Assembly (NCBI GenBank): GCA_937973945.1
Contig: CALJIY010000135.1
Span: 1-41,349, forward strand
Reading direction: 5' to 3'
Source: an uncultured Saprospiraceae bacterium
GTDB taxonomy: Bacteria > Bacteroidota > Bacteroidia > Chitinophagales > Saprospiraceae
Length of the DNA stretch: 41,349 bases
Made by a program: the position numbers and the translations under genes. A model generated the notes under the pieces. That model ran no database searches. It saw only the letters and a list, made by a program, of their open reading frames with translations, and was not told the origin of the DNA. This document shows, piece after piece, positions 572 to 26,790 of this stretch (its first letter is position 1; each line of letters begins with the position of its first letter).

Positions 572-1294
572 ATGATTTCGTTTTTTAAGTTCAATAAGCC
601 GATAAGACCACCAGCAACTAATTTAGTTGATACACACGCCCATTTATTGCCAGGAATAGATGATGGAGCGAATAGCATGGCGGAGTCAATACATATGATA
701 GAGCAAATGCATTTGATGGGGTATACCAATATAACGGCAACTCCACATGTGTTCTACGATTTTTACCCTAATAAAAAAGAGGATATAGTAAGATGCGCCC
801 AAGACGTACAAGCAGAGATAGAACGAAATAACATTCCAATCTCTTTACATGTGGCTGCAGAGTACTTTTTGGATGATCACTTCAAAGAATTACTACAAGA
901 AGGATCTCTACTAACACTTTTCGATAATAAAGTATTAATAGAAATGTCAATGTTTAGTGCGAGTCCTATCGTAGATGAATTAATATGGCAAATTACAGCT
1001 AAGGGGTATTGTCCAGTACTGGCACATCCTGAAAGGTATCTATATTTGACAGATGAAGATTATACTAGATATTTAGCTTATGGTTGTAAATTTCAAATCA
1101 ATTTATTGTCCCTAAAAGGATACTATGGACGTCAGGTGGAAAGAAGAGTTTACAGAATACTTAAAAACAATTTGGCGACTTTTGTTGGGACCGACCTACA
1201 TAAACCAGCACAGTTGAATTTAATAAAGTCTGTCATCCAATCTTCTTTTTTTTCAAAGCTTCCTCTTAACCGAACAATATTGACCTCGCAATAA
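572..1294 (+). CDS. CpsB/CapC/YwqE-type PHP-fold tyrosine-protein phosphatase
   Basis: DTHAHLLPGIDDGANSMAESIHMIEQMHLMGYTNITATPHV; later LAHPERY and GTDLHK motifs; located at the head of an EPS locus. Confidence 0.9.
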   Translation: MISFFKFNKPIRPPATNLVDTHAHLLPGIDDGANSMAESIHMIEQMHLMGYTNITATPHVFYDFYPNKKEDIVRCAQDVQAEIERNNIPISLHVAAEYFLDDHFKELLQEGSLLTLFDNKVLIEMSMFSASPIVDELIWQITAKGYCPVLAHPERYLYLTDEDYTRYLAYGCKFQINLLSLKGYYGRQVERRVYRILKNNLATFVGTDLHKPAQLNLIKSVIQSSFFSKLPLNRTILTSQ

Positions 1295-1439: not shown

Positions 1440-2123
1440 ATGGACAAACTTGATAGTTTTGAAGCTTTTTTAGCTTCTCAGAGTGTAAATATTTCTGTTT
1501 TTGGCTTTCTTATTAATTTGACATTAGCAGCTTTGCTCACCTTTTTGCTTGGATTGATTTACCAACGATATGCAAAAACACTTTCTAACAGAAAACGTTT
1601 CAGTCAAAATTTTCTATTAATCGGGCTTACGACAATGATGATTATTACTATAGTAAAATCTTCTTTAGCTCTTTCTTTAGGTTTAGTAGGTGCCTTATCT
1701 ATAGTACGTTTTAGAGTAGCAATTAAAGAGCCTGAAGAGTTAGCTTATATATTTTTAACTATTTGTATTGGATTAGGTTTTGGGGCAGATCAAAGACTTA
1801 TTACGATAGTAGGTTTTTTATTTATGACAGCAACCATCGTGACTACAGGTTTCTTTACGACTAAAATACAGAAACAAAATCTATTTTTATCTATAAGTAG
1901 TCCGAATGATTCTGACTTTATATTAGAGGGAATTGTTAAAATTCTTGAAGAGTTCTGCGATGCTGTAACACTCACTCGTATGGATGAAAATGGATCAGTT
2001 ATGGAAGCTGCATTTTGGGTAGAGTTTAAGGATTTTGGCACCTTTTCAAAAGCAAAAACAGCACTACAAACTATGAATCCATCCTTTAATATTAGTTTAT
2101 TAGAGCAAAGGGGAATTTCTTAG
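1440..2123 (+). CDS. DUF4956 domain-containing membrane protein
   Basis: Several TM segments and VGALSIVRFRVAIKEPEELAYIFLTICIGLGFGADQ, typical of DUF4956; next to CotH and VTC genes. Confidence 0.85.
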   Translation: MDKLDSFEAFLASQSVNISVFGFLINLTLAALLTFLLGLIYQRYAKTLSNRKRFSQNFLLIGLTTMMIITIVKSSLALSLGLVGALSIVRFRVAIKEPEELAYIFLTICIGLGFGADQRLITIVGFLFMTATIVTTGFFTTKIQKQNLFLSISSPNDSDFILEGIVKILEEFCDAVTLTRMDENGSVMEAAFWVEFKDFGTFSKAKTALQTMNPSFNISLLEQRGIS

Positions 2124-2151
2124 AGGCAAAGAATAAACAAAATAAAGTAAC

Positions 2152-4044
2152 TTGGAAATTAAGAAAAATTCTAGTGAATATAGTCAATCAGTTGATCTAA
2201 TTCTTAATAGTTTAAAAAAGTATAAATGGAATCTTTTCAAGACTATAGGAATGGTAATGATAGGAATCACGCTCTTTATTGGGGGATTCTATCTAAGAGA
2301 TAATATGAGTGAACATGTCATAGAAAAAAACAAGCTATATATTGGTAATGTATTAAATAACCCTATAGGAATTATACAAAACTATTTAAATTTCAATCCT
2401 AACCTTCCTCAAATCCGACTAGATATTAAGCATAAACACTTACAAAAACTAGTCTATACAAATTTGAAAGTACTTGAAGAAAATGATGGAAATTTGATTA
2501 CTACGGGTATTGTAGAAGATTTATTAATTCCTATTCACATTTCTTATAAGGATAAAACGATTAAAGCAAAAGCAAGGAACAAAGGATTTGATTCTAGCCA
2601 TCGAAGTAATATAAAGTTTTCTTTACAAATAGAATTAAAAGGAGACAATACATTAATGGGCATGAATAAATTTTCTTTATACGATCCAAAAGTAAAATCT
2701 TATATAGGAGAATGGCTTTTTCATCAGTTTTTAAGAAAGGAAGATTTCATTGCGATTGACTATGAATTAGTAGAAGTAATTATTAATGGAAAAAGTCGAG
2801 GTGTTCATGCAATAGAAGCACATTTCGACAGGTACCTATTAAAAAATAATGGATATAATGAGGGCGTTATTTTAGGATTTGATTACGAACAAGCTCCTTC
2901 TAGAAATGAGCATAGACTAACATCCTACCCAGTTACTCCCATAATTTCTTTTGATTGGGTACAAATCCGTGAAGATTCATTACTAAGGAATCAATTCTTA
3001 CAAGGTAAAAATTTATTGGAAGCTTTTCGCCAAGGAGACCTTCCGACATCTGCTGTATTTGATATAAACTCATTAGCCAAATTATTTGCTTTAAGCGATA
3101 TTTTGGGCGAACATCAAAATCTTCAAATAGATAATATTAAATTTTATTATAATCCGACCACTTCAAAATTACAACCAATTGGATATAACCAAACGCATTC
3201 CCCAAAACCTATTTCCAATTTGGTTGGAGCATTTAAAAGTGTGAATAAAGAGCCTTTTATCCAACACTGGCAAAATTCTTTTTTTAAAGATACCCTTTTT
3301 TTCAAGGCTTATGTTCAGGCTTTGGAAGAGGTATCCTCTGAAAAGTACCAACATGCTTTTTGGTCGTCCATTGATGGAGCCTACCATCAGAAACTTGAAC
3401 AGATCCGTCTTGATTTCCCTTTTTATAAAGAGGATAGTCGGCATCTCTTGTCTGAAAACAGTAAATATATCAAAAAAACACTTGAGTCTAAAAAACATAT
3501 AGAAGGATACCATTGTCAACAAACAAGTCTTACTTTTCAAAAAGAATTAGAACTAGACATCACTGGAGTGCACTCCTTTCCCATTGAGCTTACAGGACTT
3601 TATTATAAGGGGAAGAAAATTAGTCAAAATCAAAGACCAACACTATTGCTTACAAGGAATTCCCAAACTCCAATGGAATTAGAAACTATTTCTTTTTCTT
3701 TAATCAAGAATGTTCAAGAAGATACTATCAATTGGGATTCGTTAGAAATTGGTAGTTCGTTGATTGGTTTAGACAAAGAAATAAAGAGCACCATTCACGA
3801 TTGGATTTGGTATGACCCCACATTTATTAAAGATGACAATTTTCAAAGCGAGTCCACTCTTGAAAAATTTCATGTAGGGAATAGATCGAAAAACAAAAAG
3901 TATATTTCGCATAGGCCAAGTAAGCCGTTGTTACAAGAAATTGAAAAAGATTTAAAAAAGGAAAATATGGACAAATCGAATAAAAGAGATCTATTTACAG
4001 CAGGCGCAATAATTTATAGTACAACAGATGGAAAAAATAGATAG
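2152..4044 (+). CDS. CotH kinase-like protein (N-terminal TM), possibly catalytically degenerate
   Basis: TTG start; single N-terminal TM; NKFSLYDPKVKSYIGEWLFHQFLR…VEVIINGKSRGVHAIEAHFDRYLL…NIKFYYNPTTSKLQPIGYNQ resembles the CotH fold, but the usual Asp-containing motif reads GYNQ. Confidence 0.75.
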   Translation: MEIKKNSSEYSQSVDLILNSLKKYKWNLFKTIGMVMIGITLFIGGFYLRDNMSEHVIEKNKLYIGNVLNNPIGIIQNYLNFNPNLPQIRLDIKHKHLQKLVYTNLKVLEENDGNLITTGIVEDLLIPIHISYKDKTIKAKARNKGFDSSHRSNIKFSLQIELKGDNTLMGMNKFSLYDPKVKSYIGEWLFHQFLRKEDFIAIDYELVEVIINGKSRGVHAIEAHFDRYLLKNNGYNEGVILGFDYEQAPSRNEHRLTSYPVTPIISFDWVQIREDSLLRNQFLQGKNLLEAFRQGDLPTSAVFDINSLAKLFALSDILGEHQNLQIDNIKFYYNPTTSKLQPIGYNQTHSPKPISNLVGAFKSVNKEPFIQHWQNSFFKDTLFFKAYVQALEEVSSEKYQHAFWSSIDGAYHQKLEQIRLDFPFYKEDSRHLLSENSKYIKKTLESKKHIEGYHCQQTSLTFQKELELDITGVHSFPIELTGLYYKGKKISQNQRPTLLLTRNSQTPMELETISFSLIKNVQEDTINWDSLEIGSSLIGLDKEIKSTIHDWIWYDPTFIKDDNFQSESTLEKFHVGNRSKNKKYISHRPSKPLLQEIEKDLKKENMDKSNKRDLFTAGAIIYSTTDGKNR

Positions 4045-4726
4045 TAAAAGATTTACCAAAAGATTTGAACGAAAGTTTGCCATTGAAGGACTTTCTCCTA
4101 CCAAAGTAAAATCAATAATTAAGCTACATCCAGCCTTTTTCCGGGAGATATACGAACCTAGGCAAATTAATAATATTTACTTAGATACTGTTAGGCTGAG
4201 TTCATATTTTGATAATACAGATGGTAATAGCAATCGAAAGAAAGTCCGTATTCGTTGGTATGGACAAACTTTTGGGACAATTAGAAAACCAGTATTAGAA
4301 TATAAGAAAAAAACAGGCTTATTAGGAAGTAAGCCTTCTTGGAATCTTACTACATTCTGTTTGAATACTCAATTTGATCAAATAGATCTACAAGAAATTT
4401 TCGCCAATTCTGAACTCCCAAAACGCGTACAAACCGAATTGCAATCAATGTACCCAAAGTTATTGAATACCTACAAAAGAACTTATTACCAATCTTTCGA
4501 TAAAAAATTTCGAATAACAGTAGATGAAGGACTTACCTACTTTTCAATAAATTCTTACAATAATTGTTTTCTTAAAAAGACTAATCAACAAAACCAGGTT
4601 ATACTCGAACTTAAATATACAAGGGATAAGGATGATGAGGTGGATCAGATTACACAATATTTTCCATTTCGATTAACAAAAAGTTCTAAATATGTTAATG
4701 GAATAAATTTTAATCGCCCATTATAG
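4028..4726 (+). CDS. VTC domain-containing protein (polyphosphate polymerase / triphosphate tunnel fold)
   Basis: KRFERKFAIEG, NNIYLDT, KKVRIRWYG, VLEYKKK, VILELKY, KSSKYVNGI: charged tunnel-strand motifs of VTC domains. Overlaps the preceding ORF by 17 bp. Confidence 0.85.
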   Translation: MEKIDSKRFTKRFERKFAIEGLSPTKVKSIIKLHPAFFREIYEPRQINNIYLDTVRLSSYFDNTDGNSNRKKVRIRWYGQTFGTIRKPVLEYKKKTGLLGSKPSWNLTTFCLNTQFDQIDLQEIFANSELPKRVQTELQSMYPKLLNTYKRTYYQSFDKKFRITVDEGLTYFSINSYNNCFLKKTNQQNQVILELKYTRDKDDEVDQITQYFPFRLTKSSKYVNGINFNRPL

Positions 4727-4773
4727 TTTTTTAATTAAACTCAAGTACTTTAATAGTTAGCTCTTTCGATTTT

Positions 4774-6378
4774 ATGAACATGGACAAACATATAGGTGCT
4801 ATTCTTTACATTACTATCTTTCTTGTAATCTTTAGCCAAATTAAATTATATGGACAATTAGATTCTACTCGACTGCCTTTAGTAATCATTAACACAATAT
4901 CATCTCCTCATATTCCAGATGAACCTAAAATTCAAGCTAAGCTTAAAATTATCTATAATGAAAATAATTATAATTATCCAAGTGACAAAGCAAACATTTA
5001 TAATGGATACATTGGCATAGAAACAAGAGGAGCTTTTTCTAGGAATTTTCCACAAAAATCTTATAGCTTCGAAACACAGGATAGCCTTGGAGAGAACCTA
5101 AATGTACCAATGTTCCATATGCCCAAAGAAAACGACTGGATTTTACAAACGACTTATAATGATAGATCTTTTTTGCGCAACACCTTGGCTTATGACTTAT
5201 TTAGTAAAATGGGACATTATGCTCCAAGGACAAAATTTTGCGAAGTCATATTGAATAATTCGTATCGAGGCATTTATATTTTTACAGAAAAAATTAAAAG
5301 AGACGATAACAGAGTTAATATTTCAAAATTAAATCCTGACGAAAATGTAGGCGATGATTTAACTGGTGGATATATTTTTAAAATAGACGGAGATAAAACA
5401 AAATGGAACAACTTGAATACTTATTTTATCGAATACGAAGAGAATTGGAAAAGCAGTTATGCCGCTGCAAATCGTCCTAAGCGCAATGCTCCATTTGATT
5501 TTACTTATTCAAATTTTAAGTCAGAATTAAAGAATTTATTTAGAGCAAGAAGTATTTATTTTACCTATACCTATCCAAAGGCAAAAGACATAACAGAAAC
5601 TCAAAAACTGTATATTCAATCATTTGTCAAAGAATTTGAGTCCTCCTTACATTCAGCAAAAAACGATGAATATCTCCAAGCAGTTTCAAACTATATTGAT
5701 GAGGATTCTTTTATAGATTACTTCCTTGTCAATGAATTTTCTCGCAATATGGATGGTTTTTCTAGAAGTCGGTATTTCTATAAAGATAAGGCTAGTAAAG
5801 GTGGTAAGTTATATGCAGGTCCAGTCTGGGACTTTGATTGGGGATGGAAAAACGTTGACAAACCATGCATTTTTGGGGCTATGGACGGTTCAGGCTGGGC
5901 TCATCAAGCGCAAATTTGCATTCAACGAAACGCCATACCTGTTTGGATGGTTTTTCTTTTAAAAGATCCTGAATTTACACAGCGATTGAAAAATCGTTAT
6001 AAAGAGTTGAGAAGCAGCTTCCTTAGTGAGACCTATCTTTTTAACTATATAGACTCTGTTGCGACCCATTTGGAAGAATCCCAAAGTAGGCATCATGAAA
6101 AGTGGCAGAGATTAGGTTGCAATCCTACTTTTCTTCCAGAGGTCGATCCCATACCTACTACCTATGCTGGAGAGATTAGAAAAATTAAATTATGGGTTGA
6201 AAAAAGATTGTGTTGGTTAGATGCTAATATTCCGGTCTTAGGCAATAGCACTGAAATTACTTATAGTGGAAATAAGCAAGAGGAATCTTGGAAGAAAAAA
6301 ACTACTGAAGGTAATTTCTTTTTTGACTTTTGGAAAGATGCAAAAAAAATCCTTATATCTAAATTGAATCCATACTAA
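4774..6378 (+). CDS. CotH kinase family protein (secreted or membrane-anchored)
   Basis: N-terminal signal/TM; YIGIETRGAFSRNFPQKSYSFET, NDWILQTTYNDRSFLRNTLAYDL, YRGIYIFTEKIKRDDNRVNI, YAGPVWDFDWGW: canonical CotH motifs. Confidence 0.92.
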   Translation: MNMDKHIGAILYITIFLVIFSQIKLYGQLDSTRLPLVIINTISSPHIPDEPKIQAKLKIIYNENNYNYPSDKANIYNGYIGIETRGAFSRNFPQKSYSFETQDSLGENLNVPMFHMPKENDWILQTTYNDRSFLRNTLAYDLFSKMGHYAPRTKFCEVILNNSYRGIYIFTEKIKRDDNRVNISKLNPDENVGDDLTGGYIFKIDGDKTKWNNLNTYFIEYEENWKSSYAAANRPKRNAPFDFTYSNFKSELKNLFRARSIYFTYTYPKAKDITETQKLYIQSFVKEFESSLHSAKNDEYLQAVSNYIDEDSFIDYFLVNEFSRNMDGFSRSRYFYKDKASKGGKLYAGPVWDFDWGWKNVDKPCIFGAMDGSGWAHQAQICIQRNAIPVWMVFLLKDPEFTQRLKNRYKELRSSFLSETYLFNYIDSVATHLEESQSRHHEKWQRLGCNPTFLPEVDPIPTTYAGEIRKIKLWVEKRLCWLDANIPVLGNSTEITYSGNKQEESWKKKTTEGNFFFDFWKDAKKILISKLNPY

Positions 6379-6457: not shown

Positions 6458-7234
6458 ATGTTAAAAAAATATATTCCATACCTGTGGTTTACTATCCCTT
6501 TTTTCTTGTTTTCTTGTGCTTCCCATCCCGAATTTTTATACTTACAAAATTTGGAGAAAGAAATTCCAATAAATTCAACAAATATAGATGCTAAAGAATT
6601 TGCAAAAATCCAAGTGTTTGATTTTTTGCATATTTCTGTATATAGTATAGACCCAGTAGCTGCTCTTCCTTTTAATCCTCAAATTAGTTCAGGAGGCGGT
6701 GGAAACTCCCAACCAGAAGTGCTGGGGTATAAAATTGGAGAAGATGGTTTTCTTGAATTTCCAGTATTAGGTTCAATTAAGATGGTAGGCTTATCTCTTA
6801 AAGAAGCAGAATTAAAGTTGAAAAAAGAGATAGAGGTTTATTTAAAGGAACCTGTTGTAAATATAAAATTTCTAAATCTAAAAGTAACTGTCATTGGTGA
6901 AGTAAACAAGCCCGGTACTTTTGATCTACCTGTAGAAAACATGACTATATTACAAGCTATAGGTTTAGCCAGTGATGTCACAATCTATGGAGATAGAACA
7001 AACATTATAGTGGTTAGAGAAAAAAATGGAGAGCGAATAATTGGTAGATTAAACCTATTAAATACAGAGATTTTCAATTCTCCTTTTTATTATTTACAAC
7101 AGAATGATGTGATTATTGCTCAACCTTCTGCTTTAAAAGATACGCAGGTGAACACGCTCAATGCCAGAGAAATATTACCATGGGTGTCAGCAGGTGTTTC
7201 TTTCGTATCCTTGCTGATTGCTGTACTTAGATAA
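6458..7234 (+). CDS. Polysaccharide biosynthesis/export lipoprotein (Wza-like, SLBB)
   Basis: Lipobox FFLFSC; LGYKIGEDGFLEFPVLGSIKMVGLSLKEAELKLKKEI; VTVIGEVNKPGTFDLPVENMTILQAIGLA; C-terminal TM. Confidence 0.93.
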   Translation: MLKKYIPYLWFTIPFFLFSCASHPEFLYLQNLEKEIPINSTNIDAKEFAKIQVFDFLHISVYSIDPVAALPFNPQISSGGGGNSQPEVLGYKIGEDGFLEFPVLGSIKMVGLSLKEAELKLKKEIEVYLKEPVVNIKFLNLKVTVIGEVNKPGTFDLPVENMTILQAIGLASDVTIYGDRTNIIVVREKNGERIIGRLNLLNTEIFNSPFYYLQQNDVIIAQPSALKDTQVNTLNAREILPWVSAGVSFVSLLIAVLR

Positions 7235-7247
7235 AAAACCTTAGCAA

Positions 7248-9662
7248 ATGATTAATAAAATTAATGGTTACGATGAACCTAATGGATATAATTTCAATAG
7301 AAATATCGTAAGTAATGAAGCCATAGAAGAAACCGTTGATTTAAAACCATTTTTATATCGGTTACTCCGAAATTGGTTTTGGGTTGCGTTGAGCTTGGCA
7401 AGTTCTGTGGGTTTAGGATTTTTATATTTAAATCAAACCCAAGAAGTCTATAAAGTAGAAGGTTCTCTATTAATTCAAAGTGAAGAAAGTTCAGGAATTA
7501 GTCAAGAGGACATGCTATTCGGGGACCTAGGATTAGGAGGAAATAGTAATCTAGAAAATGAACAACAAATTTTAAAATCCTTTCCAATTATCAATAATGT
7601 GTTAGACACATTGAATCTAGATATATCGTATTTTCTCACTAAAGGCATAAAAACTATAGAACTTTATGAAGAAGCACCTATAAGTGTACAAATAAATAAG
7701 GATTCACAAATTTTGCCGTCCAAGTTTGTTGAAAAAAAAATCTATCAAATTCATTATATTGATCCTGATAACTTCAAATTAACTAATGGAGAAGATACAA
7801 CACTTGCCCGATTTAATATACCTTTTGAATTAGATGGTAATCAATTACTTATTGAACAATTATTACCCTTTGAAAAAGGAGAGATATATTTTAAAATTAA
7901 TGATCGAAAAGAATTAATAAAAAAATATATAGACAAGATAAACATAGAGCAAATTGCAGAGTCTGATATTTTGAGAATTTCCTTAGAGGATGTAGTTCCT
8001 CAAAGGTCAATAGAGTTTGTAGAGCACTTGATAGAAACTTACAATAAATATACTGTTCAAGAAAAGAAGCGCGTCTCAGAAAACACCCTCCAATTCATTG
8101 AAGAGAGATTACAATTCATACAAAAGGAATTGTATAATGTTGAAAAGAAAGCGGAATCTTATAAAAATCAAAATCAAATAGCTGTTGAATCAACTACTAG
8201 TGCTGGATACTATTTAGATGAAATTTCGACTTCAGATAAGGCCATTGTTGAACTTGATTTCCAAAAAAGTTTTGTTGAAAACTTAAGAAATTATCTTTTG
8301 AAACCAGAGAATCTCTATAGTTTTTTGTCTTCTATACCAGATATTGGAGAAGGAACTGGTTTTTCTGCTTCTATACAGCGTTATAATGACTTACTTGCCA
8401 CTCGGGAAAAATTGTTAATTGCTGCCAACGCCGCTAATCCTCAAGTCCAATTGCTTGAGGAGCAAATTTCAGCACTAAGAAAAAGTGTTATTGCAAATCT
8501 CAGTCAAATTGATGCTGATTTGACGAATCGAATTAATCAATTAAAAGATAAAGTCAAACCTATTGTAAGAAAAATGAATAATATTCCTCGTAACCAAAGG
8601 GAATTATTACAGATAATGCGTCAACAACAAATAAAGCAATCTTTATTTCTTTTTCTGTTGGAAAAAAGAGAAGAAACAGGATTAACATTGGCATCTAAAG
8701 TAGCTGATACTAGAACCATTAATCCGCCTATTACATTAGAAAAAGTGGCACCGAATGATAAAACTGTTCTCATGAGTAGTGCACTTGTTGGATTATTCAT
8801 TCCTATTTTCATTTTCTACATACTGGAATTTTTCAGATTTACAATTCGCGCAGAGGAAGACATTAAACGAGTAACGAATACTCCTATGTTAGGCTTCATA
8901 GAAGAAAGTAAAAACAAACAAGATATTGTAGTTCAAGAAGGTAAAAGATCAGCTATAGCCGAAATGTTTAACTTACTACGTACCAATATCCATTTTATGT
9001 TACCAATTTTAGCAAAAGAAAGAACTAAAGTATTATTGGTTACATCGAGTCAAAGTGGAGAAGGGAAAACATTTGTAGCACTTAATTTAGCGGCAAGTCT
9101 TGCACTTTCCGGAGCAGACACTTTATTAATGGGGTTTGATTTGAGGAAACCAAGACTTAGCAAAATTTTAAAACTAAAAGATGAGAATAAAGGGATCTCC
9201 AATTATTTAGCAGGAATGGAAGAAAATCCATTTGATTTAATAAGGAAAGTTGAAGGTTTTGATCATTTATCTTGTCTAGGAAGTGGTTTTGTACCTCCCA
9301 ATCCTGCTCATATGATTTTACGAGATAGAACGGATGAGTTATTTAAGCAATTAAATAATAAATTCAAATATATTATCATTGACACACCGCCTGTTGGATT
9401 AGTCACTGATGCACTTTTATTAGGTAAATATGCAGACTTATCATTATATGTTGCTAGACAGGGTATGACAAAGACAGGGCAATTAAAAATAATCGATGAT
9501 ATTTATAAAAAACATAAATTGCCACAACCATCTATAATATTAAATGGCGTTAACAAAAAATATGGCTACGGGTATGGTTATGGGTATGGCTACTATGAGG
9601 AGGATGAAATAACAACACAGCCATCTATAATTAAAAAACCTACGAGTGTCATAAATTCTTAA
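7248..9662 (+). CDS. Wzc-like polysaccharide co-polymerase / BY-kinase
   Basis: Wzz-type N-terminus, coiled coil, Walker A SSQSGEGKT, Walker A'-like LLMGFDLRKPR, Walker B IIIDTPPVG, Tyr-rich tail YGYGYGYGYGYY. Confidence 0.95.
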   Translation: MINKINGYDEPNGYNFNRNIVSNEAIEETVDLKPFLYRLLRNWFWVALSLASSVGLGFLYLNQTQEVYKVEGSLLIQSEESSGISQEDMLFGDLGLGGNSNLENEQQILKSFPIINNVLDTLNLDISYFLTKGIKTIELYEEAPISVQINKDSQILPSKFVEKKIYQIHYIDPDNFKLTNGEDTTLARFNIPFELDGNQLLIEQLLPFEKGEIYFKINDRKELIKKYIDKINIEQIAESDILRISLEDVVPQRSIEFVEHLIETYNKYTVQEKKRVSENTLQFIEERLQFIQKELYNVEKKAESYKNQNQIAVESTTSAGYYLDEISTSDKAIVELDFQKSFVENLRNYLLKPENLYSFLSSIPDIGEGTGFSASIQRYNDLLATREKLLIAANAANPQVQLLEEQISALRKSVIANLSQIDADLTNRINQLKDKVKPIVRKMNNIPRNQRELLQIMRQQQIKQSLFLFLLEKREETGLTLASKVADTRTINPPITLEKVAPNDKTVLMSSALVGLFIPIFIFYILEFFRFTIRAEEDIKRVTNTPMLGFIEESKNKQDIVVQEGKRSAIAEMFNLLRTNIHFMLPILAKERTKVLLVTSSQSGEGKTFVALNLAASLALSGADTLLMGFDLRKPRLSKILKLKDENKGISNYLAGMEENPFDLIRKVEGFDHLSCLGSGFVPPNPAHMILRDRTDELFKQLNNKFKYIIIDTPPVGLVTDALLLGKYADLSLYVARQGMTKTGQLKIIDDIYKKHKLPQPSIILNGVNKKYGYGYGYGYGYYEEDEITTQPSIIKKPTSVINS

Positions 9663-9715: not shown

Positions 9716-11101
9716 TTGGTAAAACGTAATATATTTAAGAATCTCCTTGCTTCAGGCATCCGAAAGTTTCTTCTTATTGGAGAACATCTGTTTCTAGTTC
9801 CATTTTTTCTGACAGTTTGGGGTGCAGCTTATTATGGAGAATGGTTAACGCTTATTGCTTTTCCAAGTATTATTAGTTTGAGTAATGTAGGAGTGGGGAC
9901 AGCAGCGGCAAACTCATTTGTATTAAAGTACGCAAATGGAAACTATCAAGAGGCTAAGAATACTTATTATAATGGATTATATTTAGTTTCTTATGCCATT
10001 ATCGGAGGCACTCTTTTAGGTAGTATTTTAATGCTAACACTACATGCTCAAGGTTTATTTGATAATTTATTAGTTTCATCGGTTTATGCAATAAAAGTCG
10101 TTTCTATTTTAATGATAGCCAGATTAATTAACTTTTATTCGCAATTAATTGAGGCAAAATTTCTAGCGGTACGATTAGCGTCATTTTATTTAAATATTAG
10201 AAATTTTTTTATTTTATTTAAACTATTACTTTTTATAGTTTTTTTGTTTTTTGGTGCCAAAATGTTGTCCCTTGCCATAATAGATTTATTATTGACAATA
10301 GCTGGTAATCTTACAGCCTATATATATTCAAGAAATAAGTTGGACCATTTTAAGGGGATTAAAACAAAATTCATTTTTTCCGAATGTAAAGAAATAATTT
10401 CAAAGGGAATTTATTATATGTTAAACCCATTATCACGTGCAATGTTCTTTCAAGGAAGTACAATAATGGTTAGAACTTTCTTAGGACCAGAAGCTGTTGC
10501 AATTTTTAATACAGTTAGAACACTGACAAGATCTATCAACCAAGTTTTTGGTATAATCAATACTTCCATCTTTCCTGAAATACAATTTGAATATGGGAAT
10601 GGAAATTTAGAACTCGTTAGAAAAATATTTCGATTAGGTTTTTCTATAGTAACTGTATTAAGTATTATAGGTATTGTAGTTTTAGGATTTTTCGGCTTAA
10701 ATATTTATGAATATTGGACTATGGGGAAATTAAAGGTTCCGATGGACTTATGGTGTCTATTTTTATTAGGGGCATTATTCAACACCCAATGGTCGACTGT
10801 TAGTATTCTTTTTAGAGCAGCAAATCAACCAAGGGTTCTAACTCTAACAGCTATTCTTGGAGCGGGTGTAACACTCCTATTTTGCTGGATATTAATTCCA
10901 ATATTTGGACTTTTAGGAGCAGCCTTTTCACTACTTTTGATGGAGTTGATTATGTCTATTATATTATTAATAAAAGGATGTAAGATAATTAATCAACCTT
11001 TAATTTCTCTATATACAAAAGGCTTTATGGAATTTTGGGCACTTGTATATAATTATAAATCTTTGCTACAACACAAACTAAATAAAGTCCATTTGAAATA
11101 A
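9716..11101 (+). CDS. Wzx-like oligosaccharide flippase family protein
   Basis: About 12 predicted TM segments, MATE/PST-like layout, TTG start; located between Wzc-like and Wzy-like genes. Confidence 0.85.
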   Translation: MVKRNIFKNLLASGIRKFLLIGEHLFLVPFFLTVWGAAYYGEWLTLIAFPSIISLSNVGVGTAAANSFVLKYANGNYQEAKNTYYNGLYLVSYAIIGGTLLGSILMLTLHAQGLFDNLLVSSVYAIKVVSILMIARLINFYSQLIEAKFLAVRLASFYLNIRNFFILFKLLLFIVFLFFGAKMLSLAIIDLLLTIAGNLTAYIYSRNKLDHFKGIKTKFIFSECKEIISKGIYYMLNPLSRAMFFQGSTIMVRTFLGPEAVAIFNTVRTLTRSINQVFGIINTSIFPEIQFEYGNGNLELVRKIFRLGFSIVTVLSIIGIVVLGFFGLNIYEYWTMGKLKVPMDLWCLFLLGALFNTQWSTVSILFRAANQPRVLTLTAILGAGVTLLFCWILIPIFGLLGAAFSLLLMELIMSIILLIKGCKIINQPLISLYTKGFMEFWALVYNYKSLLQHKLNKVHLK

Positions 11102-11113
11102 GTATATCATGGT

Positions 11114-11908
11114 ATTTTCATTAAAAAAAAATTTATTTTTATTCGTGGCATAAAAACAGGCAGTAGCAGTATGCAACTACTGCTTAAGCCATATATTCGT
11201 AGCCTGGAACAAACAATCTTATTTAAAATAATAAGACAACAACCCTATTTAGCACAGCGTTATCCATTTTTTGATTTCTACAATCACCCCCATTTAAGTA
11301 TAGCTCAAGCAAAATCAATCTTACCCGAAACAATTTTTGATAATCAAGTAAAATTTGGTGTCGTTAGACATCCTGTTGATTGGATTATTTCGGTTTTTAA
11401 ACATTGGCAAAGAATTTATCATTTAGACCCTAACAAAACAAAGACATATCGTGCGGTAAAGACCTTAGAAGATTTCGTTTTGTTTAGATTAGATCATTAC
11501 GTACCAATACAAGCTTTGCAATTTATTGATAAGGCAGGTGTACTACAACTTGATCATGTTGGGAATTTTGCCCACTTGAACCTATTTGCTGAATCAATGA
11601 CTTCCATACTAAATATAGAAGGATCTTTGCAAAGAATAAATGTTGCTCCCTCTAAGCAAAAGTATATACCCTCCAAAAAAGATATTTCTTTGATTGAAAA
11701 AGCATGTAGATTAGATTTTGAATTGTTTGATTTTGATCAAGCACAAGGATCTGGTTTCATCAGCGTGAAAAAAAATAAAGGAATTGAAGTAGACTTAGCT
11801 ACTGAACTTGAAAAAGCAGGAGGAAATTATTTTGACCCTTGGATATTTGCACCATCTATGAGCAAAGATGGCTTCCTTGTCCCAAATGAAAGACTAAGTA
11901 AACAATAA
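11114..11908 (+). CDS. Sulfotransferase family protein with 5' end disrupted or recoded at an A9 tract
   Basis: First in-frame ATG is 11171, but the open frame upstream encodes KKKFIFIRGIKTGSSSM, matching the PAPS 5'-PSB motif; FGVVRHPVDWIISVFKHW matches the 3'-PB motif. Start shown is the first plausible upstream in-frame codon (ATT), not a proven start. Confidence 0.7.
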   Translation: MFIKKKFIFIRGIKTGSSSMQLLLKPYIRSLEQTILFKIIRQQPYLAQRYPFFDFYNHPHLSIAQAKSILPETIFDNQVKFGVVRHPVDWIISVFKHWQRIYHLDPNKTKTYRAVKTLEDFVLFRLDHYVPIQALQFIDKAGVLQLDHVGNFAHLNLFAESMTSILNIEGSLQRINVAPSKQKYIPSKKDISLIEKACRLDFELFDFDQAQGSGFISVKKNKGIEVDLATELEKAGGNYFDPWIFAPSMSKDGFLVPNERLSKQ

Positions 11909-11922
11909 AATTTCTAGAATTA

Positions 11923-13509
11923 ATGCAAAAAAAATACCAGTGGTTGCACTCATTAAAGCGAACAGCTTGGATCATGCTTACTGTGGCTGCTATTTTGCAA
12001 ATTTATATTGAAGGTAGCAGATCCAATTCGATTGGAATTTTAGTCGCTTTATTAACTTGGTTTGTAACTGATTCCTTTTTGCTAAAAGAGCACATATTAA
12101 AGAAATATACCATTTCGTTAATACCTATAATAGGTTTTATTTTAACTCAGGTTTATTTCCCCTTAATATTCATGACTTTTGAATGGAAACCGATAACCTT
12201 TAATTTAGAGATGCCCGAATGGGTATTCTTCCATAATGCAGGCTTTTCTATAATTTTTATTGGTATACATAAATTGTATCAACAAACAAAAAAAACTGGA
12301 TTTGTAAGATTGTCTTGGATTAATAAAATTTATAACAAATGTGGTATTTATCAACCAGCGGGTGTGACTTTTGTTTGGTTTTTAGGATTCGTTGGATTAT
12401 TATCTACTACCTATGTTTATTTTGTTCTGGGGGATTATAATGGAGGGGTAGATGGTGTAGGAAGGAAGCTTCTCGATGGATTGAAACCATTAATATATGC
12501 TCCTTTTTTTCTACCTATAAGTAATTTATTTTCTACTGAAAAAAAAGATAATTTATTTTTTCTATTACTCTTATATTTTATCCCCATTTTGGGTTTAGGT
12601 ATAGGTGCTAATAGTAGAGGACTAATTGTTGTTGGAGTAATGAGTTTAGTAATTGCCTACTTTATTGATTTAGCCTTAAATGGTTCCAAAAAAACCATTT
12701 TTTCAATTAAGAATTGTCTTTTAGTTTTAAGTCTCTCTTTCATAGTGTTCGGACCATTAACTGATTTGGCCTTAGCGATGGTGATTGTTAGAAATCAACG
12801 CTATAATCTATCAGCAAGCAAATTATTTAAAAAGACTTATCAAATAGCTCAGAAAAAGGAAGTTTTGCAGAAGTATTATAAAAAATCAACCTTAAAAAAA
12901 TCAAGTAAGAAATGGGATGAATCCTATTTAAATAATTTGTTTCTAGCAAGATTTTGTAATATAAAATTTACAGACTTAACTCTTAATAATGCTAAAAAAT
13001 TAACCCCAAAAGGGAGTGAAAAATTTAGGGCTATTTTATGGAAAAGATTATTGGGCGCTTTTCCATCTCCATTACTTGACTTTTTTAACATTCGTGCCGA
13101 TAAAAGTAAAATAATGTCCGCTTCGCCTGGGGATTGGCTTTATTACCTGGCTGGAGGACCTAATCATGTTATTGGAGGTTTTAGGGTTAGTCAAGCTCCA
13201 GCAAATGCAATCGCAGCATATGGGTATGAACTAGCAATTCTGCTATATATGCTAAGTTTGTTCTTACTTTTCTATATTCTTGACGCCTTTATTTACAAAG
13301 GTATTAATATCACTCAGGTTTCTTTTATCCTCCTTCTAGAATCATACAATATATTTAAATTATTAATACAAGGTAGTCCATTTGATTTAGCGGTAGTTAT
13401 GATTCGAACTATACCAGAATTAATTTTTCTTTACGTTTCACTACATTTTATCTTTCAATTTTTAAGAAAAACTATACAAAGTGTTCGCTCCGTAGTCGCT
13501 GGAGTTTAG
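11923..13509 (+). CDS. Wzy-like O-antigen/EPS polymerase (multi-spanning membrane protein)
   Basis: Many TM segments with large extracytoplasmic loops; GLGIGANSRGLIVVGVMS; position in the EPS locus. Confidence 0.65.
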   Translation: MQKKYQWLHSLKRTAWIMLTVAAILQIYIEGSRSNSIGILVALLTWFVTDSFLLKEHILKKYTISLIPIIGFILTQVYFPLIFMTFEWKPITFNLEMPEWVFFHNAGFSIIFIGIHKLYQQTKKTGFVRLSWINKIYNKCGIYQPAGVTFVWFLGFVGLLSTTYVYFVLGDYNGGVDGVGRKLLDGLKPLIYAPFFLPISNLFSTEKKDNLFFLLLLYFIPILGLGIGANSRGLIVVGVMSLVIAYFIDLALNGSKKTIFSIKNCLLVLSLSFIVFGPLTDLALAMVIVRNQRYNLSASKLFKKTYQIAQKKEVLQKYYKKSTLKKSSKKWDESYLNNLFLARFCNIKFTDLTLNNAKKLTPKGSEKFRAILWKRLLGAFPSPLLDFFNIRADKSKIMSASPGDWLYYLAGGPNHVIGGFRVSQAPANAIAAYGYELAILLYMLSLFLLFYILDAFIYKGINITQVSFILLLESYNIFKLLIQGSPFDLAVVMIRTIPELIFLYVSLHFIFQFLRKTIQSVRSVVAGV

Positions 13510-13532
13510 TCATATTTTCAAATAATTATTTG

Positions 13533-14591
13533 ATGAAAATCTTATATATAGGCAATTCAGAATTTGGTACAACTTCTTTGCATCGAGCGATCGCACTTGA
13601 GAGATTAAGTCATTCTGTTGTTCTGTTGGATCCCTATAAAGCAATGGGTTCTCGTCTTAAAGGATTCACAGGGAAAATAAATTATCATTCGGGGTATAGA
13701 TTTCTTCAAAAGATTGTACTAAAATGGCTACGTTCTTCAATAAAACATTTGGAAGATATTCAACTAATATGGATAAATAGTGGAGAACTTTTAGGGAGTC
13801 GTTCACTTAAATTTCTGAAAGAGTTAGGAATTCCGATTGTCTTATATAATAATGACGACCCAACTGGTACTCGAGACAAAAGAAGGTTTGATATGCTTTT
13901 ATCAGCTATTCCATATTATGACTTATGTGTTGTGCGGAGAGAACCTAATATTGAAGAATACAAAGCAAAAGGAGCTCAAAAAGTATTACATGTATACATG
14001 TCCTACGATGAAATAGCACATAGTCCATTAGAAGTTATCCCGATAAAATTTCATTCTGAAGTTGCTTTTATAGGTACTTGGATGAGAAACGAAAAGAGAG
14101 ATGTTTTCTTATTAAAATTAATTAATGCAGGTATTAGTGTTAGTATATGGGGAGGGCGATGGCAGAAAAGTCCGTATTTTGAATTACTTAAACCTTATTA
14201 CAAAGGCCCATTTTTAAAAGGTAAAGATTATGTAGCTGCTATGCAAGGGGCTAAAATATGCTTAGGTTTTTTATCAAAAGGCAATAGAGACTTGCATACT
14301 CGGCGATCTGTAGAAATACCATACGCCGGTGGCTTATTATGTGCAGAACGTACTTCTGAACATCAAAAAATGTTTGAAGAAGGAAAAGAAGCAATTTTCT
14401 GGTATGATGCAGATGAATGTATTGAACTATGTAAAAAGTTTCTAAAAGATGATGAAAAAAGAGAAGCCATTCGTTTAGCTGGTATGAAAAAAGTTAGAAA
14501 TCTCAAAGTAGGTAATGAAGATACATGTCAATCTATACTAAGATCTTTAGAGGAACACGTTATGAAAAATGAATTGCTAATCAGAAGGTAA
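13533..14591 (+). CDS. CgeB-like glycosyltransferase
   Basis: MKILYIGNSEFGTTSLHRAIALERLSHSV; RRSVEIPYAGGLLCAERTSEHQKMFEEGKEAIFWYDADE. ATG at 13533 preferred to TTG 13530. Confidence 0.8.
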   Translation: MKILYIGNSEFGTTSLHRAIALERLSHSVVLLDPYKAMGSRLKGFTGKINYHSGYRFLQKIVLKWLRSSIKHLEDIQLIWINSGELLGSRSLKFLKELGIPIVLYNNDDPTGTRDKRRFDMLLSAIPYYDLCVVRREPNIEEYKAKGAQKVLHVYMSYDEIAHSPLEVIPIKFHSEVAFIGTWMRNEKRDVFLLKLINAGISVSIWGGRWQKSPYFELLKPYYKGPFLKGKDYVAAMQGAKICLGFLSKGNRDLHTRRSVEIPYAGGLLCAERTSEHQKMFEEGKEAIFWYDADECIELCKKFLKDDEKREAIRLAGMKKVRNLKVGNEDTCQSILRSLEEHVMKNELLIRR

Positions 14592-14737
14592 GAGAAGATA
14601 TTTGATAGTGCTACGTCCTTAGTATTATTGAAAAAATAAATTTACTAGAAGAATTTTGAATTGGTAAATTTAATTTTTCATAGCTCCTTATATATTTTGA
14701 CTATTCATTTAACCTCTAAATTATTTATAATAACTCA

Positions 14738-15742
14738 ATGCTTAAAGTTACCTTTTTTTATAGAAAAAAATATCCAAGTGCATTTAGCATAGAACAATTA
14801 TTTAAAGGTATAGAACAACAGTTAAGTCATAATAAAAGTAATATAGAAATAGGTAATTATGAGTTGGCTTATTATAATAACAAACTTAAAAATGTCCTAA
14901 AAAATATTTTCCAAGCTAAAAATCATGAAGGAAATATTAATCATATTACAGGTGATGTTTATTCTATTATTTTTGGGTTTCGCCATCCTACAATAATTAC
15001 AATACACGATTGTAACCCATTACTTCGTTACTCGAAATGGCATCCAAGATACTGGTTTTATAGATGGATTATTTATGAGTGGCCTATACAAAAAGCTCAA
15101 GCAATAACTGTTATTTCTAATAAAACCAAGCAAGAATTATCGGATTTAGTGTCTATTGATCTGAAGAAAATACATGTAATTCCAAACTATTTGAATCCAG
15201 AATTTAAGTTTACGCCTTTTAAATTTAACCATAAAAATCCACGTATATTACAAGTTGGTGTAAAGAAGAATAAAAACATCAAACGTTTGGCGATTGCTTT
15301 AAATGGAATACAATGTCATTTAGATATAATTGGGAAGCCCGATGATTCTGACATATATGAATTAAACAAAAACAAGATATCTTTTTCCTTTGAAACTCAA
15401 TTAACTTCATTGGAGGTAATCGAAAAATATAAAAATTGTGATTTAGTAGTTTTTGCCTCAACTTATGAAGGCTTTGGATTACCCATCCTAGAAGCTCAAG
15501 CAATAGGAAGACCAGTGATTACAAGTAATATTTCACCAATGAAAGAGGTAGCTGGGAAAGGAGCTGTATTGGTGGATCCTTATAAATCTGAATCCATCCG
15601 GTTGGGCATAAAAGAAATTTGTATGAATGAGAACCTAAGGAACCAACTTATAATGGATGGTTGTGAGAATATTAAAAATTATTCCATTGTAAAGATCACT
15701 CAAAAATTCCATAATTTATATTCTTCAATTGCGACTGAATAA
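14738..15742 (+). CDS. GT4-family glycosyltransferase
   Basis: TIHDCNPL, QAITVISNKTKQEL, PRILQVGVKKNKN, DLVVFASTYEGFGLPILEAQAIGRPVITSN. Confidence 0.92.
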   Translation: MLKVTFFYRKKYPSAFSIEQLFKGIEQQLSHNKSNIEIGNYELAYYNNKLKNVLKNIFQAKNHEGNINHITGDVYSIIFGFRHPTIITIHDCNPLLRYSKWHPRYWFYRWIIYEWPIQKAQAITVISNKTKQELSDLVSIDLKKIHVIPNYLNPEFKFTPFKFNHKNPRILQVGVKKNKNIKRLAIALNGIQCHLDIIGKPDDSDIYELNKNKISFSFETQLTSLEVIEKYKNCDLVVFASTYEGFGLPILEAQAIGRPVITSNISPMKEVAGKGAVLVDPYKSESIRLGIKEICMNENLRNQLIMDGCENIKNYSIVKITQKFHNLYSSIATE

Positions 15743-15941
15743 TTAAGCCCTATCATTTCTCTGGATACCTTGGAAGGGGAAACTAGAGAAAAAATAATCT
15801 CATTTATGTCCATATACTTGCCGAACTAAAAAAAAAATAACTTCGCAAAATCCCATACCCCCATACTTTAAGTAATGACTTTCGAATTTAAACTATAACA
15901 AAAATTTGTCTGTAGGTCATTCTTGGGTAACTATAAAAAAA

Positions 15942-17072
15942 ATGAAAATACTTTTCCCCGTAGGTAGTTTTTATCCAGCTCAAACCGGAGGTCCAGATAA
16001 CACTGTTTATTGGATAACTAAAGCCTTGAAAAAACGACAGCAAGATCCAATAGTCGTATCTACTAATAAAGGGTTAAAACCTAATATTCTAACTGAAAAA
16101 TGGTTAGAGAAAGAATATGCGAAAGTAAATTACACAAAAAATAAAATTCATTACTTCCCAATTCCTCTAATTAAGATCGCTTATAATCAGCTAAAAAATG
16201 CAGACATATTACATTTGACCATGATCTTTTATCCAGCTTCTTTTATCATGGCTATTTTAAATAGGTTCTTTTATAAACGCCCTATTATTTGGTCAGTTCG
16301 TGGAGACTTAGATCCTCATATGTTAGAGCGAAGTTCATGGAAAAAAAAACCTATTCTATTTTTAATAAAGAATTTCCTAAGAAGCAATGTTACTTTTCAT
16401 ACTACTTGTAATGCAGAAACAGCGTATTTAAAAAACAAAATTGGGGAAGACATAGAGGTAATTCAATTGGCGAATTATATGGAATTGCCAGAGAAGCTAG
16501 GAATAGTTAAGCAAAAATACTTGCTATATCTTGGTAGAATTGATTCCAAAAAAGCTATCGAAAACTTAATTGAGGGAATAAATCAATCTCAAAAATTCTT
16601 AGATTCAGATTACGTCCTCAAAATTGCAGGAGATTATAAAAACCCATATGGTTTAGGATTAGTGAAATTAGTTGAACAATATAATTTAAAGCATAAGATT
16701 CAATTTCTTGGACATGTTGAAGGACTCGAAAAACAAAAAATATTGGCAGCTGCCTATTTCTTAATCATGCCCTCTCATACGGAAAATTTTGGTATTGTAG
16801 TAGCGGAGGCTTTAAGCCAAGGAACACCTGCCGTAGCTTCTACAGGTACGCCATGGCAATTATTAGTAGATTATAAGTGTGGCTTTTGGATTGACAACAC
16901 GCCAGAAAAAATTTCAACTACTGTTGATCTTATTTTGGAAATGGACACGACTCAATATCAAGAATATGCCACTAACGGAAGACGTCTGGTCGAGAATGAA
17001 TTAGATATTTACCATAATATTGAAAAATGGATTCTTACCTATAAACAGTTACTTAAATCTAGAAGTACTTAA
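15942..17072 (+). CDS. GT4-family glycosyltransferase
   Basis: MKILFPVGSFYPAQTGGPDNTVYW; YLLYLGRIDSKKAIENLI; IMPSHTENFGIVVAEALSQGTPAVAST. ATG 15942 preferred to TTG 15906. Confidence 0.92.
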   Translation: MKILFPVGSFYPAQTGGPDNTVYWITKALKKRQQDPIVVSTNKGLKPNILTEKWLEKEYAKVNYTKNKIHYFPIPLIKIAYNQLKNADILHLTMIFYPASFIMAILNRFFYKRPIIWSVRGDLDPHMLERSSWKKKPILFLIKNFLRSNVTFHTTCNAETAYLKNKIGEDIEVIQLANYMELPEKLGIVKQKYLLYLGRIDSKKAIENLIEGINQSQKFLDSDYVLKIAGDYKNPYGLGLVKLVEQYNLKHKIQFLGHVEGLEKQKILAAAYFLIMPSHTENFGIVVAEALSQGTPAVASTGTPWQLLVDYKCGFWIDNTPEKISTTVDLILEMDTTQYQEYATNGRRLVENELDIYHNIEKWILTYKQLLKSRST

Positions 17073-17193
17073 TCCAGTCATTTGTTTTACTAGACCTACT
17101 CCTAAATTCACGAACAATGATTTTCAACGCATAAAATCAAAAAAGATAAACCATTAACAAAAGTACCTTGGACACCTCCACCGAATCTAAATT

Positions 17194-18144
17194 ATGAACC
17201 TAAAGCAACACCTCACAGTTATTATTCTAACATACAACGAAGAAAATAACATTTTGGCATGTTTAGATTCCATGGATGGAATCGAAGCAAATTATTTTGT
17301 AGTTGATTCTTTTTCGACAGATAAAACTTTATCACTTCTTAAAGAAAGAGGTATCACCTACGCACAGAACAAGTTTATCAATTATTCTAACCAAAGAAAC
17401 TGGGCGCAGCGTAATAATCCTTTTCAAACAGAATGGGTTTTACAAGTAGATGCTGGAGAGCGTATTTCTTCTAATATGGTTGAATGGATTGTTAATGAAT
17501 TTAATCCAATAAACAAAAATTTTAATGGATATATGTTTGCTCGGAAAGCCATATTTATGGGTAAATGGATTCGCTATGGTGGCTATCATCCTATTTATCA
17601 TCTTAGGTTATTTCGCAAGGATAAGGGCAAATGTGAAGATAAAGTATATGACCAACATTTTGTGGTGGATGGAAATGTAAAAACTTGTAAGGACAACATT
17701 TCATTTGAGGATACAGTAGCCGATAATCTAAAAGAATTCACCATTAAGCACATAAAATGGGCAGTATTTGAAGCAACAGAAACTATTCTTAATGAACAAA
17801 ACAGAGGCGAGGTAAAAGAAAATTTGTTGGGTAATCCTATAGAAAGAAGAAGGTGGCTCAAGAATAATATTTTCCAAAAAATGCCTTTATTCATGAGGTC
17901 CTTTTTCTATTTTTTTTATAGATATTTTTTCAAATTAGGATTTTTGGATGGAGCGATTGGATTAATTTTTCATGTCTTACAAGGGTTCTGGTTTAGGTTT
18001 CTTGTTGATGCAATTATTCTAGAAATACGGACTGCTATTGAAACTAAAAGTCTGGAAGAAGTTTTAGAAGAAAATTATCAAATAAAAGCAGATTTACTTA
18101 TTCAGAATAGATCAGAAACAGGACTAGTCGTAGTTGGTAATTAG
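17194..18144 (+). CDS. GT2-family glycosyltransferase
   Basis: LTVIILTYNEENNILACLDSMDGI; VDSFSTDKT; WVLQVDAGERI; KWIRYGGYHPIYHLRLFRK. Confidence 0.92.
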   Translation: MNLKQHLTVIILTYNEENNILACLDSMDGIEANYFVVDSFSTDKTLSLLKERGITYAQNKFINYSNQRNWAQRNNPFQTEWVLQVDAGERISSNMVEWIVNEFNPINKNFNGYMFARKAIFMGKWIRYGGYHPIYHLRLFRKDKGKCEDKVYDQHFVVDGNVKTCKDNISFEDTVADNLKEFTIKHIKWAVFEATETILNEQNRGEVKENLLGNPIERRRWLKNNIFQKMPLFMRSFFYFFYRYFFKLGFLDGAIGLIFHVLQGFWFRFLVDAIILEIRTAIETKSLEEVLEENYQIKADLLIQNRSETGLVVVGN

Positions 18145-18157
18145 AATATAAATTTAG

Positions 18158-18697
18158 ATGTATCAGGATTTAAAAACCTTCCAGCTTCCCGACAACTTCC
18201 GTGGTCGCTCAGGTTGGTATACTCAACTATGGTGGATCATTCAAGGTCTATTGTTCAAAACTTCCCCTCAATTTATGTATGCTTGGCGTAGATGGCTTTT
18301 AAGGTGCTTTGGCGCAAAAATTGGAAATGGAGTCATTATTAGACCAAGCGCTCATATTCAGTTCCCTTGGAAGTTGACAATAGGAGATTATTCTTGGATA
18401 GGAGATGAAGTCGTTTTATACAGCCTAGGAGAAATAAATATCGGGAATAATGTGGTTGTCTCACAACGTTCTTACATCTGTACAGGATCACATGATTACA
18501 ATGATTCTACCTTCTCAATTTATCAAAAAACGGTCACTATTGAAGACGAATGTTGGCTTGCTACAAATGTTTATGTTGCCCCAGGTATAACAATTGGCAA
18601 AGGAACTGTAGTAGGTGCCAGATCTTCTGTTTATAAAAATTTGCCTTCCGGAAAAATATGCTTAGGAAATCCTGCCAAAGTATTTAAAGATAGATAA
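18158..18697 (+). CDS. WcaF-like left-handed beta-helix acetyltransferase
   Basis: Hexapeptide repeats; CTGSHDYNDSTFSIYQKTVTIEDECWLATNVYVAPGITIGKGTVVGARSSV. Confidence 0.9.
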   Translation: MYQDLKTFQLPDNFRGRSGWYTQLWWIIQGLLFKTSPQFMYAWRRWLLRCFGAKIGNGVIIRPSAHIQFPWKLTIGDYSWIGDEVVLYSLGEINIGNNVVVSQRSYICTGSHDYNDSTFSIYQKTVTIEDECWLATNVYVAPGITIGKGTVVGARSSVYKNLPSGKICLGNPAKVFKDR

Positions 18698-18917
18698 TTA
18701 TCTAGTGAAGTAGGAGTTGAATGTAATTTAGCGGCGCCAATTTGCAACTGCTCTAAGGAAATGAATGATCTTTTCAAGTTCTTAGCATACAAGTTTGCAA
18801 ATCCTAAATACATTCCAAATCACTTTATTATAATGTTTATTCTAAACTGTACAGTACCCAATTATTCATGTACGATGATAATAAATACATGGATTTAACC
18901 AATGACAAAATATTAAA

Positions 18918-21222: not shown

Positions 21223-21399
21223 AGTATTCGGAATAAACTAAAGTACCTTATGTTAGTGAATTATACAGTACAACACTAATAGGTACATTCTTCCTTAAAT
21301 CATTCCTTAATAAGTACTTGGACATAATTAAATTTAGAAATAGAATGAGGTTATTTATTCGATAGTTTTTCTTAAAATTTTCTTTAATAGCCTTAGCTA

Positions 21400-23062: not shown

Positions 23063-23134
23063 TACAGCCTATGTTGAGTTTTCGATAGTGCTGCTTATAA
23101 GCTTTATATTCTTTCTTACTAAAACATACACATA

Positions 23135-26735: not shown

Positions 26736-26790
26736 AATTGTATTATTTCGAGTAGCCCTAAGAATAATTTCTTTAATGAATTAAAAAAAA

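Follow-up and report, generated by a model that had tools for sequence, protein, structure and literature searches.

A DUF4956-CotH-VTC-CotH gene module in an exopolysaccharide locus of a Saprospiraceae bacterium: distribution and possible function

Organization of the locus

The genome of an uncultured Saprospiraceae bacterium (assembly GCA_937973945.1) encodes, at positions 1440-6378 of contig CALJIY010000135.1, four consecutive genes for a DUF4956 membrane protein, a CotH-like protein (CotH1), a VTC-domain protein and a second CotH protein (CotH2), all on the + strand and flanked by the gene of a CpsB-type phosphatase on one side and those of a Wza/Wzc-type exporter on the other (Table 1). 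The stretch analysed, referred to as the window, is this entire contig of 41,349 nucleotides, one of the 632 contigs of an assembly that is 91% complete; CpsB, Wza, Wzc, a flippase, glycosyltransferases and a phosphoglycosyltransferase (PGT) are all present in it, as expected of a Wza/Wzc-type exopolysaccharide (EPS) locus. It is proposed, with a probability of roughly 0.4, that the four genes constitute one envelope-spanning phosphoryl-transfer module that was recruited into this EPS locus.

An earlier reading of this DNA (the original prediction) had named the four genes, placed them between the phosphatase and the exporter genes and reported an overlap of the CotH and VTC open reading frames (ORFs). 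The assignments were borne out by Pfam, in the case of CotH1 through its match to the CotH fold of structure 5jd9, the ORF coordinates together with Pfam and NCBIfam agree with the placement, and the overlap is real (17 bp, 4028-4044). Scans of the window locus for promoters and terminators gave results at chance level, and no terminator-like site was found on the + strand between the co-oriented genes of the module and its flanks. A recent foreign insertion, as judged by composition, was rejected since no step in GC content was seen at the module edges. Across the genome of the window there is one match to VTC, two to DUF4956 and eight to CotH.

Table 1. Genes of the window, with the module and its borders.
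Feature	Position	Strand	Evidence and remarks
CpsB-type PHP phosphatase	572..1294	+	Pfam PF19567 1.3e-42; left border of insertion
DUF4956 membrane protein, 227 aa	1440..2123	+	Pfam PF16316 2.7e-15
CotH1, 630 aa, TTG start	2152..4044	+	Pfam PF08757 E 0.0052, below cut-off; Foldseek 5jd9
VTC-domain protein, 232 aa, predicted cytosolic polyphosphate polymerase	4028..4726	+	Pfam PF09359 2.4e-26
CotH2, 534 aa, secreted CotH kinase (predicted)	4774..6378	+	Pfam PF08757 1.9e-60
Wza-type polysaccharide export protein	6458..7234	+	Pfam Poly_export 5.5e-11, SLBB 1.8e-8; right border
Wzc-type chain-length/tyrosine autokinase	7248..9662	+	NCBIfam Wzc 8.7e-47, eps_fam 1.1e-37
Remaining EPS cluster: Wzx-type flippase, several glycosyltransferases, epimerase, Bac_transf PGT, YjbH-like pair	9716..34498	+	Pfam

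A constant VTC-DUF4956 pair with exchangeable partners

Loci encoding VTC proteins were collected from the family and order (72) and from a wide scan (80, the best 80 of 470 matches); they span about 8-10 kb on either side and many contigs end sooner, so that the counts of Wza linkage given below are lower bounds. DUF4956 was found within four genes and on the same strand at 127 of 151 VTC loci, 78 of which also carry CotH, evidencing that the neighbourhood of the three families named in the original prediction is real and recurrent. VTC was found in three of 14 control genomes, and these are exactly the three that contain DUF4956; this co-presence, together with the linkage at 127 loci, means that the two genes are associated more than by chance. 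Adjacent core genes overlap or lie at most 30 bp apart in 151 of 205 pairs, the commonest orders being DUF4956-CotH-VTC (34), VTC-DUF4956 (30) and DUF4956-VTC (27). The wide scan retrieved metagenome-assembled genomes (MAGs) labelled as Bacteroidota, Chlorobiota, KSB1, Planctomycetota, Omnitrophota, Poribacteria and Chloroflexi (assignments taken as given, with binning errors possible for single rows) as well as isolates of Adhaeribacter, Rufibacter, Agaribacillus, Puteibacter, Methanosarcina and Methanogenium.

The VTC-DUF4956 pair is constant and its outward partner varies: CotH at 78 loci (three of them also with a DUF2490 protein or a small lipoprotein), a DUF2490 barrel and/or a small lipoprotein at 18, and an HlyD-type adaptor directly before VTC, with gaps of -4 to 82 bp, at six. 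This swapping of partners around a fixed pair is in keeping with a device for handing something to the outside.

Several of these arrangements were seen in detail. Six relatives (L072-L078), in which CotH is missing from the neighbourhood, have a gene encoding an HlyD-type membrane fusion protein of 351-362 aa directly 5' of VTC-DUF4956. In further families of the order, the pair is flanked by a DUF2490 protein of the outer-membrane type and a small lipoprotein (L034, L045, L046 and L081, among others). The second DUF4956 gene of the window's own genome (L216:5311-8368, contig C434 of G000) is followed by HlyD-type and TolC-like genes, the latter recognized by eye with Pfam silent, and no VTC occurs on the stretch read. 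A separate group of VTC genes lacks DUF4956 and is found close to a ribB-like gene and to glycosyltransferases of GT2 and GT4 (L036, L056, L059, L061, L099, L101 and L102).

Predicted properties of the encoded proteins

The profile of the VTC family, when compared with the PDB, matched only VTC chains, with yeast Vtc4 (3g3q) as the best (E 4.2e-17). All eight tunnel and metal residues of Vtc4 that were tested are kept in the window protein and their alignment columns are invariant across 70 sequences: R74, R76 and E194 correspond to R264, R266 and E426 of Vtc4 (the positions at which the offset in numbering was verified), and K16, K93, K102, R151 and R162 to K200, K281, K294, R361 and R373. 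The window VTC has no transmembrane (TM) segment, and neither have 150 of 151 relatives. TTM folds include many hydrolases, and it could be argued that VTC is a triphosphate hydrolase of this superfamily and that the module is unrelated to polyphosphate. In line with this, the family keeps a Glu in the RxExK motif (position 14), and E14 is equivalent to a Glu of the acidic patch of hydrolases (the fourth position of the patch could not be aligned). This alternative is improbable: besides the exclusive PDB matches to VTC proteins, two positions that hold Glu in the hydrolases are occupied by basic residues here (R12 and K196), like those of Vtc4 (compared as in PMC4641920), and the position of the catalytic K458 of Vtc4 appears to be retained as the invariant K221. 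Considering that R12 and K196 are basic and E14 is still acidic, polymerase activity of VTC is likely, although not certain. The presence of PPK1 in the genome of the window and in 11 others means that VTC is not simply a housekeeping enzyme or the sole enzyme of polyphosphate metabolism.

DUF4956 was modelled with AlphaFold2 (mean pLDDT 88) as an N-terminal helix, five predicted TM helices and a C-terminal ferredoxin-like domain of the ACT/PII/CutA type, with helices at 20-44, 51-72, 75-93, 98-115 and 119-139 followed by a beta-alpha-beta-beta-alpha-beta arrangement. The best structural matches of the model in the PDB were ferredoxin folds of the CutA/PII/ACT type (E about 2e-3 to 1e-2), and a profile search of the PDB with DUF4956 found nothing. 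Searches with the MgtC model gave sub-threshold matches (1e-4 to 8e-4) to DUF4956 proteins, none of them in the window's genome, and hhalign aligned DUF4956 with MgtC at a probability of 27% (from an MgtC alignment of only 3 sequences). The likeness to MgtC is thus weak; it is independent of, and consistent with, the published reading of the streptococcal protein SIR_1592, which is discussed below.

The AlphaFold2 model of CotH1 matches Bacillus cereus CotH (5jd9, Foldseek E 8.3e-15), as does the profile of its family (7.7e-5). CotH1 carries a membrane anchor (TM 28-46) and CotH2 a hydrophobic, signal-like N-terminal segment (7-25), according to which both proteins are probably located outside the membrane. 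At the E223 position (column 594), occupied by E in 96 of 102 family members, CotH1 has A, and at the D346 position (column 839), with D in 89 of 101, it has N; it is also changed at the family-invariant D149, R159, H322 and R330. At 630 aa, CotH1 lacks the C-terminal beta-helix present in 25 relatives of 832-1007 aa; Pfam confirmed this helix in relatives. CotH2 scores 205.5 bits against the Pfam CotH model (cut-off 23.8), is intact at both columns (E594 and D839), is also devoid of a beta-helix and groups with the CotH proteins of L052 and L051 on a branch separate from that of CotH1. Judging from these residues, CotH1 is probably a catalytically dead pseudokinase paired with an intact, secreted CotH2, a feature missed by the original prediction. 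As the CotH1 ORF is intact and still overlaps VTC, it looks like a kept pseudokinase rather than a decaying gene. Loss of the Asp is not peculiar to CotH1 of the window, since L147, L123 and L156 also deviate at that position; what singles it out is the joint loss of Glu and Asp. One relative (L079, 4814-14338) encodes three CotH1-type proteins with beta-helices, arranged in tandem around a single VTC.

Placement of the module among polysaccharide genes

The module is widespread and under-described, and its embedding in EPS genes is a rare variant at the level of a lineage. The idea that the placement represents a conserved type of locus was rejected: CpsB adjoins Wza without the module in six loci of relatives (L185, L187, L191, L192, L201 and L203), in another (L190) an epimerase-type gene lies between the two and the module is absent, and the neighbourhood search retrieved Wza and Wzc beside the module in only one of about 150 other VTC loci, L147 (Lewinellaceae isolate Ww617, a MAG). 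Likewise, in a set of 20 genomes whose loci are of the glycan type or similar, that of L147 was the only one with Wza within 20 kb of VTC. Of the two findings that together would have refuted the original prediction, one applies, homologous EPS loci lacking the module, and the other does not, as the module has a recurrent synteny of its own.

In L147 the order is Wza-Wzc-Wzy-Wzx-DUF4956-CotH-VTC-CotH, and the order DUF4956-CotH-VTC-CotH without a further CotH was observed only there and in the window. Descent of both modules from a shared EPS-linked ancestor was not supported: they are not sisters on the VTC tree, where support around the window is low. Beside the L147 module a protein resembling purple acid phosphatases/metallophosphatases, with Ig and TSP3 repeats, is encoded (13459-16422).

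In four congeners (G002, G004, G006 and G007) DUF4956-CotH1-VTC is located beside leuS, and in one of them, G006, the CpsB-Wza-Wzc locus (L191) is free of the module, of which two copies lie at other sites (L039 and L048). Together with the module-free CpsB-Wza junctions and the scarcity of Wza linkage, these cases would be expected if the module were a passenger, serving phosphate storage or some other surface process and brought into this EPS locus by rearrangement with no functional tie to its polysaccharide. Such an explanation is somewhat unlikely considering that the genes are all co-oriented with no terminator-like site between them, that a second, non-sister lineage (L147) displays the same order beside Wza/Wzc, and that the module is repeatedly linked to other glycan genes and, in streptococci, genetically to Pel.

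The linkage to glycan genes is apparent in the wide set, in which 10.6% of 738 non-core ORFs matched glycan profiles vs 3.8% in the family/order set (an enrichment that is indicative, there being no matched random-locus control) and at least one glycan gene lies near the module in 34 of 80 loci. The Pfam tally of 135 further neighbours was led by MBOAT (11), Wzy_C (7) and AlgX (7), which represent exopolysaccharide polymerisation/ligation and O-acetylation. DUF4956-VTC-CotH inside glycan clusters is common to L109, L120, L135, L158, L159 and L167, five of which have a second CotH further on. On the VTC tree (149 rows) the 18 rows with two or more nearby glycan genes require 12 label changes, at least four of them forced by well-supported branches. 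Based on these changes and on the separate positions of the window and L147, the module seems to have been recruited to glycan loci several times.

Relation to Pel accessory genes and other known systems

Genes for CotH, a polyphosphate polymerase, DUF4956 and DUF4832 were described beside pelDEADAFG in streptococci and clostridia (Whitfield and colleagues, PMC7112168). Recently, the three shared genes were deleted in Streptococcus intermedius (PMC12345266, 2025): loss of SIR_1592 (MgtC-type TM protein with an ACT domain) raised Pel and loss of SIR_1594 (CotH) lowered it, either deletion reducing aggregation in sputum medium by more than half, and no phenotype was described for SIR_1593 (polyphosphate polymerase). 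The statement of the original prediction that the function of this neighbourhood is not established is therefore slightly outdated, as two of the three genes are reported to influence both aggregation and the level of Pel. Its suggestion of a coupling to surface polysaccharide is sustained by these mutants and by the glycan neighbours of part of the loci, but not by the EPS position as a conserved arrangement.

The same study stated that synteny of the triad does not occur outside Pel loci (PMC12345266). This does not hold, as PelG was absent from all 50 genomes examined among those of the loci studied, nearly all of which carry the triad (the control, Thermotoga maritima, was positive). The window's genome is one of them, so that its module is not contiguous with pelDEADAFG within the limits of that assembly's completeness. 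Divergent gene order and sequence may be the reason why the triad was missed elsewhere.

The window resembles the Gram-positive Pel accessory set in that the same three families, contiguous in both, form one set tied to an exopolysaccharide: a membrane protein with an ACT-type and, by weak similarity, an MgtC-type part, a predicted polyphosphate polymerase domain and a secreted CotH. It differs in being associated with a Wza/Wzc-type EPS locus rather than a synthase-dependent one, in having two CotH proteins, one predicted dead, and in the absence of DUF4832 among the four genes. With the yeast VTC complex (Vtc4/Vtc3/Vtc1) it would share a TTM polymerase domain at the cytosolic face, with conserved tunnel residues, and a membrane partner carrying the product across; the bacterial VTC has neither SPX nor a TM domain of its own, and we infer, rather than observe, translocation by DUF4956. 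The fold or profile of the CotH spore-coat kinase of B. cereus (5jd9/5jda) is common to both window CotH proteins, which differ from it in being extracytoplasmic, with no sporulation context, and, for CotH1, in the loss of two near-invariant residues; a beta-helix is present in most relatives. NELoc-2 of C. perfringens (PMC2879425) has two VTC genes and CotH beside a chitin-synthase-type glycosyltransferase and is thus similar in joining VTC and CotH to a polysaccharide synthase; it is Gram-positive and its interleaved membrane genes are annotated as tubulin/FtsZ.

The streptococcal results can also be read as regulation, DUF4956 sensing a small molecule through its ACT/ferredoxin-like domain, VTC handling a phosphate signal and CotH phosphorylating proteins of the export machinery, which would tune the amount of polysaccharide with no decoration of it. 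The opposite shifts of Pel in the two deletions, the production of Pel in the absence of any of the three genes, the ACT/PII-like domain of the DUF4956 model and its weak similarity to MgtC, a regulator in Salmonella (PMC12345266), are in line with this. The secreted beta-helix that is usual in CotH proteins is closer to a polysaccharide-binding than to a regulatory domain, and the exchange of CotH for a barrel or an HlyD adaptor fits export better. Since the SIR_1593 deletion has no described phenotype, a strict donor role for CotH is disfavoured, unless another source of polyphosphate exists, and regulation, doubtful as it is, has to be kept with the passenger explanation as a serious rival.

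A possible mechanism

ATP is scarce outside the membrane. A phosphoryl-transfer module might overcome this as follows: VTC would make polyphosphate from ATP at the inner face; DUF4956 would dock VTC and either conduct or gate the outward passage of the polymer or of phosphoryl groups from it; a CotH outside the membrane would draw on polyphosphate for the phosphorylation of an assembly protein or of the exopolysaccharide as it is made; and this phosphorylation would alter the amount or properties of the polymer exported by Wzc/Wza. In the window the active kinase would be CotH2, with CotH1, dead and anchored in the membrane, acting as a docking subunit. The proposal of a phosphoryl-transfer module is backed by the tight spacing of the core genes, the VTC-DUF4956 linkage, the tunnel residues, the exchangeable partners, the glycan neighbours and the Pel mutants.

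Several observations weigh against it: 25 VTC-DUF4956 loci have no CotH, barrel or adaptor nearby; congeners hold the module away from EPS genes; both CotH proteins of L147 lack the canonical Asp; VTC retains in E14 a Glu of the hydrolase acidic patch; no phenotype is described for the polymerase deletion in S. intermedius; and no literature report was found of polyphosphate synthesis by a bacterial VTC of this type. Altogether, it is rather probable that the module acts on surface polysaccharide, while the complete mechanism with polyphosphate as donor can be put forward only tentatively. A broader hypothesis, speculative and less probable again, is that bacteria and archaea have in VTC-DUF4956 a general machine in which cytosolic synthesis of polyphosphate is followed by its transfer across the inner membrane to exchangeable partners, CotH using it as an ATP-free donor for surface glycans and barrels or HlyD adaptors passing it on.

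Other features of the EPS cluster

The EPS cluster of the window contains a gene for a sulfotransferase-like protein of 245 aa (11171-11908; Pfam 9e-4, below cut-off), the presence of which suggests a sulfated polysaccharide, and one for a kelch-repeat protein of 1454 aa that bears a sorting domain of type IX secretion (27967-32331). Two adjoining ORFs encode the YjbH-like protein (32422-34498) and between them match the N-terminal part of the Pfam model and its middle part; as the second begins with a signal-like segment, the pair may be a two-gene form, not a frameshift.

Concluding remarks

The triad occurs in Bacteroidota and Chlorobiota, in further phyla and in methanogens, in several envelope contexts and without Pel, which indicates that its function is not Pel-specific and depicts it as a general envelope module in which the cytosol/membrane pair stays fixed and the outward partners change. 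This wider distribution and the swapping of partners are the parts worth following. They raise a testable question, namely what powers phosphorylation outside the membrane, and the window provides a natural variant, with one of its two CotH proteins seemingly dead, that is useful to separate docking from catalysis. If the broader hypothesis were true, the VTC-DUF4956 machine would be the prokaryotic counterpart of the yeast VTC complex.

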